A stretch of 51,590 nucleotides of DNA from Desulfurobacterium atlanticum (lineage in GTDB: Bacteria; Aquificota; Aquificia; Desulfurobacteriales; Desulfurobacteriaceae): assembly GCF_900188395.1 (NCBI RefSeq), contig NZ_FZOB01000012.1:1-51590 (forward strand). Reading direction: 5' to 3'. The translations under genes were made by a program, and so were the position numbers. Of the stretch, positions 25,441 through 39,526 are shown one piece after another. The notes under the pieces were generated by a model. The model had not been told where the DNA came from and searched no databases. It worked only from the letters and a program-made list of their open reading frames with translations. Position 1 is the stretch's first letter. Each line of letters opens with the position of its first letter.

Positions 25441-27222
25441 ATGAAAACAGGAAATTGCACATACAAACCTATCTACAAAACAGATAAGGTTTCTCAAGCA
25501 GATATAATTGAAGCTCTGGATAACTTTATTCTTAGAATCGAAAGATTAAAAATTAAAATAGACGCCCTGTACCCGGCAGACCCGTGTGCATTTCCATTTA
25601 CTATGTACATTTCAGGAAAAACAGGTATTCCCATAAAAACGGAAAAATTTTTAAAGCCTGAAAATCGTATTTTAATGCTCTTTTCCATCTACCCGGACCA
25701 GATAAAAAAACCTGGAATAAATTTCCTTAATGAAACATTTATTAACGAGAAAATCAAAATTTTTCGTTCCCGATTCCCCAAGTCCCCTTCCCTCCTTGTT
25801 GCCGGAAACAAACATTTTAAATCTGTTGATATCCAGTTGATTTTATTTGAAAAAGAAGAAAAGATTAACAGTTACAAATTTTTATCCGAAGCTTACAGAA
25901 ACTATTACTTCCCGGTAGAGGGAGAATTCTTGCACATAGATGAAACTTTCTGGAACTTAAGCAAAAAAGAGCTCAATCAATTCCTGAAAGCAAAAAGAAT
26001 AAGAGATGCAGCATTTTCTATCGGATATGATTCCCTGGATGAAGTAAACACATTTACGCCTCTTGAAGAGGATATAGACATACTAATATGGGAAAAACTC
26101 GGCAAACTGCAGTTAAGCCCGGTAAAAACAGATTTATCCGACACACATAAACCACCCCTGGAAATAAAATACAAAAAACTTCTTGATATAAAAAACAAGG
26201 AAGACAATTCAGTAATCGTATCCATCCTTGAAACAATATCTCAATCCATTGAAGAATCGTTTCCGGTACGCCTTGCATACACAAATTACGAAATAGTTCC
26301 GGAAAATAAAGTTTTAATAGTCCCTGTAGCAAAAGAGATTGTTGACGGAATAGAGCTTAAAATTGAGATAAGTTACAAAACACCGTTTAAAACAGACCAG
26401 CAGAAACTGATAGCAACAGTTCAGAAAACATTGAAAACGATAGTAAAAGAAATTTTAAATAAAAAAACGTTCAGGCCTTATATGGAAATAGTTATAGACG
26501 AGGAAGAGGAAAGTATAAGAATTTACATAAACTGGTTTCTTGAGAGAAAAGCTCTTGATAAGCTTTCCAGAAGAATAAATAAAAAATGGCTTCTATCTCG
26601 GCTTATATCAAGAAAACAATCGGTAATAAGAAGAAACACCTTACTCAAAGAGATAAAAAACTTCGTTTTCTCTCCTGAAAGTATATCAACAATATTTTCT
26701 CTTATGGAATCTATCTGGAGTGAAAATCCGATATTTTTCAAAGCCTCAGGGAACAAAATCAGAGAAAGTTTAGAAAAGTATAATATCTGGTATATTCTGG
26801 GAATATATGCACTTAAAACAGCAGGAGAGATAAGACTTGACGGAGTGGCAGGGAACAAAGAACTTCTTGATTTTCTACTAAAACTAAGAAAAGTTGAGAA
26901 TTTTCACCACTTCTTTGCAACAACTGACAGATACGTCTTTCCTGTAAAAACGGAAAGAATATACAGACCCAACTGGGAAAGACTTATAAAAAACGATGGA
27001 AAAATAGTTTTAACCCACGAAGTCTTAAATCCTGAAACACCGGTTACATACACTCTTAAAGATGAAAACGGATTTTTCCTGGGAACAGTCCCAAAAATCA
27101 TTTCCCACTATCTTGCAGCAAAAGAGGAATCAGGGTACACTTTAAAAACAGAAAAACTTTACATTGATAAGGTTATGTTTTCAAACAGTTCCTACTGGAT
27201 AGAGATAAAATGCTTGAAATAG
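25441..27222 (+). CDS. 593-aa protein of unknown function
   Basis: I do not recognise this protein. It has no signal peptide or membrane segment. It has alternating beta and charged-helix regions, a basic patch around residues 375-405 (ERKALDKLSRRINKKWLLSRLISRKQ written in parts) and an aromatic/basic segment near 500 (FHHFFATTDRYVFPVKTERIYRPNW). The last ~60 residues (NPETPVTYTLKDENGFFLG, then VPKIISHYLAAKE) vaguely recall a HIRAN-type domain (conserved 'NP.....V...dG..lGyvP'), which would hint at nucleic-acid binding; this is a weak inference. It overlaps the ABC ATPase start by 13 bases, so the two are probably cotranscribed. Confidence 0.7.
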   Translation: MKTGNCTYKPIYKTDKVSQADIIEALDNFILRIERLKIKIDALYPADPCAFPFTMYISGKTGIPIKTEKFLKPENRILMLFSIYPDQIKKPGINFLNETFINEKIKIFRSRFPKSPSLLVAGNKHFKSVDIQLILFEKEEKINSYKFLSEAYRNYYFPVEGEFLHIDETFWNLSKKELNQFLKAKRIRDAAFSIGYDSLDEVNTFTPLEEDIDILIWEKLGKLQLSPVKTDLSDTHKPPLEIKYKKLLDIKNKEDNSVIVSILETISQSIEESFPVRLAYTNYEIVPENKVLIVPVAKEIVDGIELKIEISYKTPFKTDQQKLIATVQKTLKTIVKEILNKKTFRPYMEIVIDEEEESIRIYINWFLERKALDKLSRRINKKWLLSRLISRKQSVIRRNTLLKEIKNFVFSPESISTIFSLMESIWSENPIFFKASGNKIRESLEKYNIWYILGIYALKTAGEIRLDGVAGNKELLDFLLKLRKVENFHHFFATTDRYVFPVKTERIYRPNWERLIKNDGKIVLTHEVLNPETPVTYTLKDENGFFLGTVPKIISHYLAAKEESGYTLKTEKLYIDKVMFSNSSYWIEIKCLK

Positions 27223-28160
27223 ATAACCTCAGTATAAAAGTAGAAAACTTCTACATCGTCAGAAATGTTTCACTCTCAGTCAGAAAAGGAGAAATCTTAG
27301 GAATAATAGGTGAAAGCGGAAGCGGTAAGTCCATAACAGCTCTTTCTATTCTCAAGCTTATCCCTGAAAGTCTTAAAATATCTGGAACTGTTAAAGTAAA
27401 TGGAAGGGATATATACGAGCTTGAAGAGAGAGAGTTTAATAAAAATATCCGCTGGAAAACCGTATCCATAATATTCCAGGACCCGGCAGCATCCCTTAAT
27501 CCTCTTTTAACAATTGGAGAGCAGATAAAAGAAGCAATAATATTTCATGAAGAAAAGAAAGAAAACTTAAAAGACACAATTATAAACCTGCTTTCAGAAG
27601 TTGAAATTAAAGAACCTGAAACTGTTTACAAAAGTTACCCCCACCATCTGTCAGGAGGAATGAAACAAAGGGCAATGATTGCCATGGCACTGTCGTGTAA
27701 TCCAGATTTTATCATCGCCGATGAACCAACCACAGCCCTTGACAAACAAACAGAGCACAAAATCATCAAGCTTTTAAAAAATTTATCTAAAAACAAAAAC
27801 ACAGGTGTAATCTTTATATCCCACGATATTGAGGTTATTGAAACTATAGCGGATACCATCACCGTTATGTATGCAGGATTTGTGATGGAATCAGGGGAAA
27901 CTGGAGAAGTTATAAAAAAACCATACCACCCATATACAAAAGGACTTATTGAATGCATTCCAAAAGTAGAAGGTAAAGGGAAAAGGAAACTGCCGGTAAT
28001 CCCTGGAAATGTTACGGACATAAAATCAAGACCTTCTGGCTGCCCGTTTCATCCAAGATGCTCAAAAAGAAAGGAAGTCTGCCAGAGAGAACTTCCCCCA
28101 CTGAAACAGATAGAAAAAAGAACTGTCCGCTGTTTCTTTCCAGAATATGAGGCCGTTTGA
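27210..28160 (+). CDS. oligopeptide/dipeptide-type ABC transporter ATPase (orphan)
   Basis: 316-aa DppD/OppD-type ATPase: Walker A GESGSGKSIT, Q-loop IFQDPAASLNPL, signature HHLSGGMKQRAMIAMAL, Walker B FIIADEPTTALD, and the C-terminal oligopeptide motif SGCPFHPRCSKRKEVC with its four-Cys Fe-S-like site. No permease, binding protein or partner DppF lies in the window, so it is an orphan subunit. The last three codons and the stop (GAG GCC GTT TGA, 28149-28160) lie inside the inserted 145-bp element. Without the insertion the frame would have ended at FPEY-stop. Confidence 0.88.
   Translation: MLEIDNLSIKVENFYIVRNVSLSVRKGEILGIIGESGSGKSITALSILKLIPESLKISGTVKVNGRDIYELEEREFNKNIRWKTVSIIFQDPAASLNPLLTIGEQIKEAIIFHEEKKENLKDTIINLLSEVEIKEPETVYKSYPHHLSGGMKQRAMIAMALSCNPDFIIADEPTTALDKQTEHKIIKLLKNLSKNKNTGVIFISHDIEVIETIADTITVMYAGFVMESGETGEVIKKPYHPYTKGLIECIPKVEGKGKRKLPVIPGNVTDIKSRPSGCPFHPRCSKRKEVCQRELPPLKQIEKRTVRCFFPEYEAV
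28139..28148. repeat. target-site duplication, left of element copy A
   Basis: TCCAGAATAT, repeated exactly at 28294-28303. The two copies bracket the 28149-28293 element. Confidence 0.7.
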
Positions 28161-28293
28161 AAAATGGCTATGAACTTTAAGAGATCCTTCGGGCTTTGCC
28201 CTCAGGATGACTTTCTTCGTCATTCTGAGGCTGCTTTGCAGCCGAAGAATCTCAATACCTTTTAGAAACAAATGAGAATTTTCAAACACTCTC
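28149..28293 (+). mobile_element. 145-bp MITE-like element, copy A
   Basis: Non-coding element with imperfect 15-bp terminal inverted repeats: GAGGCCGTTTGAAAA at 28149-28163 and its partner TTTTCAAACACTCTC at 28279-28293 (12 of 15 pair). The core 28155-28287 matches the reverse complement of 36733-36865 at 132 of 133 positions. The inner part folds as two hairpins (GGGC-TTT-GCCC and GGCTGC-TTT-GCAGCC) enclosed by an outer stem GAGAT.CTTCGG. It is flanked by 10-bp duplications TCCAGAATAT. The boundaries come from those duplications. Confidence 0.8.
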
Positions 28294-28303
28294 TCCAGAA
28301 TAT
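28294..28303. repeat. target-site duplication, right of element copy A
   Basis: TCCAGAATAT, an exact copy of 28139-28148. The T at 28303 is also the first base of the TTGACA promoter hexamer of the next gene. Confidence 0.7.
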
Positions 28304-28333
28304 TGACAAAACATGGAAATATTTTCATATTAT
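28303..28333 (+). promoter_or_regulatory. putative sigma-70-type promoter for the FmdB-like gene
   Basis: TTGACA at 28303-28308 is followed by TATTAT (28328-28333) with a 19-base spacer, or CATATT with 17. It lies about 30-60 bases before the zinc-ribbon gene and just outside the inserted element. Confidence 0.45.
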
Positions 28334-28364: not shown

Positions 28365-28562
28365 ATGCCTGTATATGAGTTTAAGTGTGAAGACTGTCAA
28401 AAGGAATTTGAAAAATTTCTCATTTCCGCCTCAAAAATTGATGAAGTAAAATGCCCTTTCTGCGATTCTAAAAATGTGAAAAAGAAGATTTCAGCGTGCG
28501 GTGTAAAAGGCAGTGGTGAAGGTAAAATATCTGGAACATCTTCCTGCTCACCATTTGGCTGA
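28365..28562 (+). CDS. FmdB-family zinc-ribbon protein
   Basis: 65 aa starting MPVYEFKCEDC after GGAGGAG. Two CxxC pairs (CEDC and CPFC) form the zinc ribbon of the FmdB/CxxC_CXXC_SSSS family. The tail is Gly/Ser-rich with a further Cys in SACGVKG and TSSCSPFG. Family members are regulators or small accessory proteins of unclear role. The longer upstream frame is rejected because it would begin inside the mobile element. Confidence 0.88.
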   Translation: MPVYEFKCEDCQKEFEKFLISASKIDEVKCPFCDSKNVKKKISACGVKGSGEGKISGTSSCSPFG

Positions 28563-36716: not shown

Positions 36717-36728
36717 GCAGCATCTGGA
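36717..36728. repeat. target-site duplication flanking element copy B
   Basis: GCAGCATCTGGA, repeated exactly at 36872-36883. Read on the minus strand it is TCCAGATGCTGC, sharing its first six bases with the duplication around copy A. Confidence 0.7.
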
Positions 36729-36871
36729 AAGTGTTTGAAAATTCTCATTTGTTTCTAAAAGGTATTGAGATTCTTCGGCTGCAAAGCAGCCTCAGAATGA
36801 CGAAGAAAGTCATCCTGAGGGCAAAGCCCGAAGGATCTCTTAAAGTTAATAGCCATTTTTCAAACAGCCTC
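36729..36871 (-). mobile_element. 143-bp MITE-like element, copy B
   Basis: Inverted relative to copy A, with the core 36733-36865 differing at one of 133 positions. The ends carry GTTTGAAAA and TTTTCAAAC. The outer tip on the hydA side is two bases shorter than in copy A. It fills the space between the hydrogenase promoter and mutS. It has no coding capacity. Confidence 0.8.
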
Positions 36872-36883
36872 GCAGCATCTGGA
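36872..36883. repeat. target-site duplication flanking element copy B (second copy)
   Basis: GCAGCATCTGGA, identical to 36717-36728, on the mutS side of the element. Confidence 0.7.
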
Positions 36884-36970
36884 CTTTCAAAAGCGATTAA
36901 CCTAAAATAATATACCTATAAGCAGTAAAGCTAAGCTTAAACTATGAGTTAACAGGATAGTTGAGCAATT

Positions 36971-39526
36971 ATGATAAATAAAAAGAACCTAACTCCGGCT
37001 CTTAAACAGTATCTTGAAATAAAAGAAAAGCACAAAGATGCCTTGCTCTTATTTAGGATGGGAGACTTTTACGAACTATTTTTCCAGGATGCTGTAACAG
37101 CTGCAAGGGAGCTTGAGATTACTCTAACTTCAAGAAATTTTGGAAAATCAACCGAAAAAGTTCCGATGTGCGGTGTTCCGTATCACAGTGTTGAACCCTA
37201 CATAGAAAAATTGATAAGGAAAGGCTATAAGGTTGCGATATGTGAACAGGTTGAAGAACCAAAACCGGGGAAGAAAATTGTCAAAAGGGAAGTTATAAGA
37301 GTAATTACCCCGGGCACCTATTTTGAAGATGAAAAAGAGGAAAGATTCCTTATGGCAATTTACCCTTCTGGAAAAAAGCGATACAGCATAGCATGGACTG
37401 ACCTTTCAACTGGAGATGTTTTCTTCACAACCACAGATAAAGAGCATCTTCTCTCTATCATAGATAAATTTAAACCGAAAGAAATCATTGCACCGGAGAA
37501 AGTAAAAACTATTTTCAAAGAGATAAAACAGATATGTCCGGAAAGCTTTATTCAAATAAAAGAGGAAAGCTTTTTTAAAACTTTAAATAAATTCCACATA
37601 GAATCGAATAACGAAACTGAACTAAAAGTCCTTTCATCAATAGAAAAATTTATAGAAGAAACCCAGCTTGAATTTAAACCAAAACTTAAAAAAGCCAGAA
37701 GATATGTAGAAGAAAACTTTATATACCTTGACCCATTCACCTGTAAAAGTCTTGAATTAACAGAATCCATACACAACAGCAAAAAGGAGTTTTCACTCTT
37801 TGGTGTTCTTGATAAAACCACTACCGGTATGGGAAGAAGATTCCTCAAGTTTTCAATTTTACATCCACTGAAAAGTAAAGAAAGTATAGATAGAAGGCTT
37901 GAAGCTGTTGAATCTCTAATCTCTTCAATGTTTATAAGAGACGAAATAGAAAAGATACTAAAAGAGATTTACGATATTGAAAGGATTTTCTCAAAAATCA
38001 GCTCTGGAATTGCATCTCCCAAAGACCTTGCTGCATTCCGCCGCTCCATAAAAGAACTTCCTTCTCTAAAAAAGCTGTTAAATGGACTTTCTGGAAAACT
38101 GTTTAAAGAGATAAAAAAAGATTTTGACACCCTTGAAGATATCTACCATGAACTTGAAAGAGTAATCGTTGAAAATCCGCCCTTCTCGCCAAGAGAGGGA
38201 GGAATAATAAAAAGAGGAGTTGATAAACAGCTTGATGAATTAAGGAAGATAACCGAAGAGGGAGAAGAGATACTGAAACAGATAGAGGAGAGAGAGCGTA
38301 AAAGAACAGGAATTGCAAGCCTAAAAATAAAATTTAACAACGTTTTTGGATACCACATAGAAATTTCAAAACCAAATCTTCATCTTGTTCCAGAAGATTA
38401 CATAAGAAGGCAAACCCTTGTAAACGCCGAAAGATTCATAACTCCAGAATTAAAAGAATTTGAAGAAAAAATACTAAGTGCAAAGGAAAAGATTGAAAAG
38501 ATAGAGTATGAGATATTCAGCAATCTCAGAAAATTTATAACTAAAAATGCAGAAAGAATTCAGAAAACAGCAGAAAAAATAGGATTAATAGATTTTTTAC
38601 TTTCGCTATCAAAAGTGGCAATTGAAAGAAACTACTGCAAGCCAGAAATAACAACAGGATATTCTATAACCATAGAAGAGGGCAAGCATCCCGTCCTGGA
38701 GAAATTTTTAGAAGAAGATTTTATTCCTAACAGTATAAACCTGGCAGAATCGGCATTTCTTTCTATAGTAACAGGTCCCAATATGGGAGGAAAATCAGTA
38801 TTTTTAAGGCAGACAGCCCTTATCGTTCTCATGGCACAGATAGGTTCATTTGTTCCCGCAAAATCTGCAAAAATAGGAATAGTTGATAGGATATTTTCCC
38901 GTGTGGGAGCTTCTGACAACGTAAGTAGAGGACTTTCAACCTTCATGATGGAAATGGTTGAAACGGCAAACATACTTTCAAATGCCACTAAAAGAAGCCT
39001 TTTAATACTTGATGAAATTGGAAGAGGAACAAGCACATTTGACGGTATGAGTATAGCAAGAGCAGTTGTGGAATATATAGCAGAAAAAATAAAAGCAAAA
39101 ACCCTATTTGCCACTCACTATCACGAACTAACAGAGCTTGAAAAAGAGATAGAAGGTGTTTTTAATCTTCACGTTACCGTTAAAGAGATAAACGGAAGGA
39201 TAATATTCACCCATAAAGTTGTTCCAGGAAGTTCTGAAAAATCTTACGGGATTCATGTTGCCAGACTGGCAGGACTTCCTGAAGAGGTTATAAAAAGGGC
39301 AGAGGAACTTTTACTCTCAATGGAGAACAACATTACAAATAAAATCCCGGCAAACATAAAAAACAAAGATGATACCCTTCCTCTTTTTACATTAAAAGAA
39401 CCAGAAAACTACCCTCACAGTGAAATCCTGAAAGAACTTGAAACTATAGATATCTCAACAACCACCCCCCTTGATGCTCTTATGATTCTGGCAAGACTTA
39501 AAAAATTAGCTTCAAGAAAGGTTTAA
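36971..39526 (+). CDS. mutS: DNA mismatch repair protein MutS
   Basis: 851 aa. The N-terminal mismatch-recognition motif LFRMGDFYELF follows LTPALKQYLEIKEKHKDA. The ATPase domain has Walker A GPNMGGKS (602-609), the SRGLSTFMMEM and ILDEIGRGTS (Walker B) motifs, and the ATHYHEL signature. It is the full MutS1 type rather than MutS2. The ribosome site before the ATG is weak (GAGCAA). The promoter must lie between the mobile element and the start, but I see no clear one. Confidence 0.96.
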   Translation: MINKKNLTPALKQYLEIKEKHKDALLLFRMGDFYELFFQDAVTAARELEITLTSRNFGKSTEKVPMCGVPYHSVEPYIEKLIRKGYKVAICEQVEEPKPGKKIVKREVIRVITPGTYFEDEKEERFLMAIYPSGKKRYSIAWTDLSTGDVFFTTTDKEHLLSIIDKFKPKEIIAPEKVKTIFKEIKQICPESFIQIKEESFFKTLNKFHIESNNETELKVLSSIEKFIEETQLEFKPKLKKARRYVEENFIYLDPFTCKSLELTESIHNSKKEFSLFGVLDKTTTGMGRRFLKFSILHPLKSKESIDRRLEAVESLISSMFIRDEIEKILKEIYDIERIFSKISSGIASPKDLAAFRRSIKELPSLKKLLNGLSGKLFKEIKKDFDTLEDIYHELERVIVENPPFSPREGGIIKRGVDKQLDELRKITEEGEEILKQIEERERKRTGIASLKIKFNNVFGYHIEISKPNLHLVPEDYIRRQTLVNAERFITPELKEFEEKILSAKEKIEKIEYEIFSNLRKFITKNAERIQKTAEKIGLIDFLLSLSKVAIERNYCKPEITTGYSITIEEGKHPVLEKFLEEDFIPNSINLAESAFLSIVTGPNMGGKSVFLRQTALIVLMAQIGSFVPAKSAKIGIVDRIFSRVGASDNVSRGLSTFMMEMVETANILSNATKRSLLILDEIGRGTSTFDGMSIARAVVEYIAEKIKAKTLFATHYHELTELEKEIEGVFNLHVTVKEINGRIIFTHKVVPGSSEKSYGIHVARLAGLPEEVIKRAEELLLSMENNITNKIPANIKNKDDTLPLFTLKEPENYPHSEILKELETIDISTTTPLDALMILARLKKLASRKV

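Follow-up and report, generated by a model that had tools for sequence, protein, structure and literature searches.

The targets of bacterial transposons, as usually described, are short sequences, stretches rich in A+T, tRNA genes, terminators, or replication structures, and the described subgroups of the IS5 family of insertion sequences (IS) generate target-site duplications (TSDs) of 2–9 bp. ISAae1 of Aquifex aeolicus is an IS5-like member of this world. MITEAba12, in the abstract of its description (PMC6382973), exemplifies the short, non-autonomous, IS-derived mobile element, and the GTAG/CGTC-tagged REPs and REPINs (PMC3733652, PMC3116915) offer the other point of likeness to the element described here, viz., an interior made of two inverted palindromes. 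A literature search of partial coverage on promoter-targeted insertion sequences and on ISAae1 returned nothing relevant. The element considered below was encountered in a 51,590-nucleotide stretch of Desulfurobacterium atlanticum DNA (hereinafter the window), and its copies were surveyed across the source genome (1.74 Mb, 23 contigs). We consider it probable (roughly 0.85) that it represents a MITE of the Desulfurobacteriaceae (Aquificota) that is moved by an IS5-family (ISAae1-like) element and inserts just upstream of sigma70-type promoters.

A MITE at the 3' end of an ABC ATPase gene

The focal element (28149..28293, + strand; 145 bp) is found at the end of an oligopeptide/dipeptide-type ABC ATPase gene (27210..28160, +), upstream of a gene coding for an FmdB-type zinc-ribbon protein (Zn_ribbon_8; 28365..28562, +). 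Its left terminal inverted repeat (TIR), GAGGCCGTTTGAAAA (28149..28163, +), and its right TIR (28279..28293, −), which reads GAGAGTGTTTGAAAA on the minus strand, match at 12 of 15 positions, and the two are bracketed by exactly matching copies of the TSD TCCAGAATAT (28139..28148 and 28294..28303), an agreement expected by chance with a probability of ~2 × 10–6 when 10 bp are compared exactly at a single fixed pair of sites. The first-pass annotation of this DNA had claimed an element with these very bounds, imperfect 15-bp TIRs and exact 10-bp duplications, and every detail is correct on the sequence. No credible ORF occurs within the 145 bp, and an Rfam search gave no match above the gathering score.

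The left TSD lies within the last ATPase codons, as had been claimed, and these now read TTT CCA GAA TAT GAG GCC GTT TGA (F-P-E-Y-E-A-V-stop), with the E-A-V extension added by the MITE and the in-frame TGA supplied by the left TIR, which is common to a 980-bp IS (see below). Removal of the MITE and one TSD in silico restores an ATPase ending in ...CFFPEY-TGA, so that the joined flanks and the codons together bear out the earlier reading of FPEY-TGA after deletion and E-A-V-stop with the insertion. The −35 box TTGACA of the fmdB promoter (28303..28308, +) begins where that annotation had placed it, the final base of the right TSD serving as its first T, and in the MITE-free arrangement it overlaps the TGA ending the ATPase. 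It is followed by the −10 candidates CATATT (17-bp spacer) or TATTAT (19-bp spacer) at 28326..28333 (+).

An empty orthologous site, which the annotation had suggested looking for, is present in a genome of the same genus (G003): its ATPase, 63% identical to the focal one, ends in FFPEY-TGA with a TTGACA overlapping the stop and fmdB as the next gene, and both this −35 box and CATATTATAT of the −10 region are kept. The genomes G001 and G002 are uninformative in this regard because the sequence after the ATPase differs there.

Copies of the MITE in the genome

The source genome contains 19 copies of the MITE, 18 of them near full length and mostly 92–100% identical; the focal element and the copy at C1:299874-300018 are identical across all 145 bp. 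A recognizable 10–12-bp TSD with at most one mismatch flanks 15 of the 19, answering the earlier proposal to look for further copies with flanking duplications, and different copies have different flanks and TSDs. Most are intergenic or situated at gene edges. The second copy in the window (36727..36871, −; 98% identical) lies just upstream of mutS between TSDs of GCAGCATCTG (36717..36726 and 36872..36881), and a promoter-like TGGACT-N17-TAAAAT (36880..36908, +) starts at its TSD edge. Each of the two window copies is upstream of promoter-like boxes directed at a gene, namely fmdB and the MutS-like ORF at 36971. The initial description as a small non-coding mobile element is thus upheld by multiple copies with TSDs and flanks that differ per copy, by the unoccupied locus in G003, and by an IS whose ends match; being short, transposase-free, and equipped with imperfect TIRs, multi-copy TSDs, and ends matching those of an autonomous-type IS, it is a MITE. 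An exact-pattern search for mini-elements with the same TIRs in ten relatives returned none, yet G003 has a 92% identical copy with a diverged TIR (G003:C35:17464-17608, L032), which sits within one interior-type palindrome.

A 980-bp IS of the IS5 family as the probable partner

A terminal-repeat search of the genome recovered two pairs 980 bp apart (C2:136580-137559 and C13:12362-13341). These delimit two IS copies, 97.6% identical, with the same TIRs as the MITE and each with a transposase gene whose product matches the NCBIfam IS5-family model NF033579 (163–165 bits against a cut-off of 140) and the DDE_Tnp_1 domain. The TSD of the C13 copy measures 11 bp. In another genome, G005, the transposase has 21 matches, most of them intact, and where IS copies are readable there, their TSDs are 9–12 bp long, mostly 10 or 11; across MITE and IS insertions the TSD has a mode of 10 and a range of 9–12 bp. 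G005, like G043 (see below), was assigned to the Desulfurobacteriaceae from a transposase search of genome contigs, which returned only four loci, chiefly in Desulfurobacteriaceae MAGs, and perhaps left out the source genome; a plasmid search returned only ece1 of Aquifex aeolicus.

Both own-genome IS copies show the same GGA-to-TGA change after the Y-2-R-3-E motif, with a loss of ~46 transposase residues, making present activity in this genome doubtful. Past the premature TGA the two copies (L101:1096-1926, L102:1197-2027) nevertheless retain the frame and differ at a few silent positions only, which might be explained by readthrough or by descent from a shared truncated parent. The MITE and the IS resemble each other only in the terminal ~17 bp, and derivation of the MITE from the IS by simple internal deletion was rejected because the likeness is confined to the ends. 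Given the common ends and TSD lengths, the 980-bp IS is the likely mover, and the MITE would probably be mobilized in trans by such an ISAae1-like IS.

Interior palindromes

The MITE interior is an inverted pair of REP-like palindromes (28181..28211, +, GAGATCCTTCGGGCTTTGCCCTCAGGATGAC; and 28219..28253, −), the first of which forms hairpins in an RNA fold (z −3.9). The motif of the second is also densely arrayed in two other regions of the genome (C1:133-142 kb and 157.7-161.4 kb), which contain polysaccharide and sugar-nucleotide genes. These array loci (L103, G000:C1:133018-142178; L104, G000:C1:157751-161410) contain the motifs GTCATYCTGAG and GARATYCTTCG, and several small ORFs near them resemble, by eye, HEPN/nucleotidyltransferase pairs. 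The palindrome motif recurs in 10/10 paired MITEs examined in G043, which belong to a separate MITE family, and in those read the palindromes are arranged opposite to the focal MITE; therefore, the association of palindrome and TIR either arose more than once or was rearranged.

The inverted pair, together with the two Y1_Tnp genes of the source genome (G000), would agree with an element of the REP/REPIN type whose mover is a RAYT (Y1 tyrosine transposase). We regard this as extremely improbable: the good MITE copies all have DDE-type TIRs and TSDs, where a REPIN would have neither and be bounded by its palindromes, and G001 and G003 contain the palindromes with no Y1_Tnp match. RAYT as the mover is accordingly disfavored, as the Y1_Tnp genes do not track the palindromes. 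The focal palindrome sequence, when looked for in PMC3733652, was not found there.

Insertions keep a fixed register with −35 and −10 boxes

The occurrence of TTGACA at the end of the duplication is a rule of the MITE/IS family and not an accident of this locus, a point that goes beyond the first-pass annotation. Pooled, the MITE and IS insertions whose TSD is clear number 29; of these, seven have an exact TTGACA straddling the TSD edge (offset −1), and none has it at a different offset between −6 and +20. TTG occupies the TSD-edge offset in 15/29, and TGAC lies exactly at the edge in 8/29 (p ~1 × 10–12 versus flanks). When both flanks of 40 insertions were scanned, moving away from the TSD edge, for TATAAT with at most one mismatch, a peak appeared at 22 nt (18 ends, against a background of 0.9). 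A TATAAT-like box is present at 21–23 nt, a window picked after inspection of the first sites, in 26/40 insertions (~2.6, or 6.5%, expected; p ~1 × 10–21), while about one third of the insertions are missing a clear −10 in register. This spacing corresponds to a 16–18-bp spacer, and the site is therefore promoter-like, with the duplicated DNA at about −36 to −45. The promoter is found on either side of the element with roughly equal frequency, indicating that the element is not oriented. Such targeting in register with the promoter, leaving −35 and −10 intact, accounts for the TTGACA adjoining the duplication. The flanking −35/−10 pairs are probably active promoters, judging by their sequence.

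The same register is seen in related elements. All three ISAae1 copies have a −35 in register (TTGACT, TTGACA, and TTTACA), with TATAAT or TATACT 16 nt further on in two of the three; one of the copies (L191, in G060) matches the annotated copy on plasmid ece1. A 73% identical IS from a Desulfurobacteriaceae MAG (L165, in G020) has TTGACA in register, and in G043 a tandem of IS and MITE is followed by TTGACA-N17-TATAAT. The members of this tandem (L224 and L180, G043:C1 about 1777228-1778381) have one TAAAACCTAT duplication in common, as if the same promoter had been hit twice at the same position. The other G043 MITEs lean toward the promoter register, weakly. As a control, an unrelated IS256-type element of G043 put through the same analysis gave no TTG peak and a −10 in only 1/16.

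The mostly intergenic or gene-edge location of the copies might suggest that insertion is random and that copies persist only in intergenic DNA upstream of promoters. Selection of this kind would not be expected to give a register of 1–2 bp; the −10 peak, rather than being broad, falls to background within a few bases, and the IS256-type element shows no peak at all, making survivorship very unlikely.

What guides the cut is a separate matter, which affects neither the insertion nor its register. The transposase itself might read promoter-like DNA, with TTG at the cut and an A+T-rich box two helical turns off, and RNA polymerase uninvolved. The strong enrichment of exact TTGACA at the very TSD edge and a register sharp to ~1 bp speak for this reading, to which we would give nearly even odds; against it, the −10 persists at 21–23 nt in 21/29 insertions without a good −35 in register, which would amount to a long asymmetric site for a transposase alone to recognize. 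This −10 signal in the face of a poor −35 leans, without being decisive, toward guidance by promoter-bound RNA polymerase. We put forward, tentatively and at somewhat less than even odds, that a lineage of IS5-type ISs in the Aquificota, together with its MITEs, docks on promoter-bound sigma70 RNA polymerase when inserting at about −36/−45.

For the system as a whole, we propose that an ISAae1-like DDE transposase, acting in trans, would recognize only the MITE ends and cut the target with a 9–12-bp stagger, usually of 10 bp, immediately before a promoter of the sigma70 type, which would put the duplicated DNA at about −36 to −45. The guide for the cut would be either RNA polymerase bound to the promoter or its DNA signature. 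The promoter side would keep its −35 and −10, and only DNA upstream of about −45 would be replaced. At the focal locus the target was the fmdB promoter, with its −35 TTGACA overlapping the ATPase stop, and the insertion shifted that stop into the MITE terminal repeat.

Comparison with known systems and implications

In comparison with MITEAba12, as far as the abstract of its description (PMC6382973) extends, the focal MITE differs in its promoter-register insertion and in its interior of paired REP-like palindromes. Unlike the REPs and REPINs (PMC3733652, PMC3116915), its signals of mobility are DDE-type TIRs and TSDs. ISAae1 is like the present elements in its transposase (34–37% identical), a similar TIR with a GTTTAAAA/GTTGAAAA core, a 9-bp TSD, and the same −35 register in each of its copies, but unlike the MITE it is autonomous, 1010 bp long, has another TIR sequence, and is known from only three copies.

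If the main reading is true, near-fixed insertion just upstream of promoters would be both unusual among bacterial transposons and gentle as a choice of target, and a family landing repeatedly at a fixed distance upstream of −10/−35 boxes would clearly exemplify promoter-guided integration. Such targeting would allow spread without gene breakage, and replacement of the UP region would be a source of regulatory rewiring; the insertion sites might also serve as pointers to promoters where transcript data are scarce. Were RNA polymerase the guide, the elements would provide a tractable biochemical system.

The yeast elements Ty3 and Ty1 insert at a fixed position upstream of a promoter and spare the gene, being eukaryotic retroelements guided by RNA polymerase III factors. 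The focal MITE and its IS resemble them in the way they work, i.e., fixed upstream insertion, with no homology. Polymerase docking, if true, would make these Aquificota elements a bacterial counterpart of polymerase-guided retrotransposon integration, in which the upstream region is swapped and the core promoter spared.
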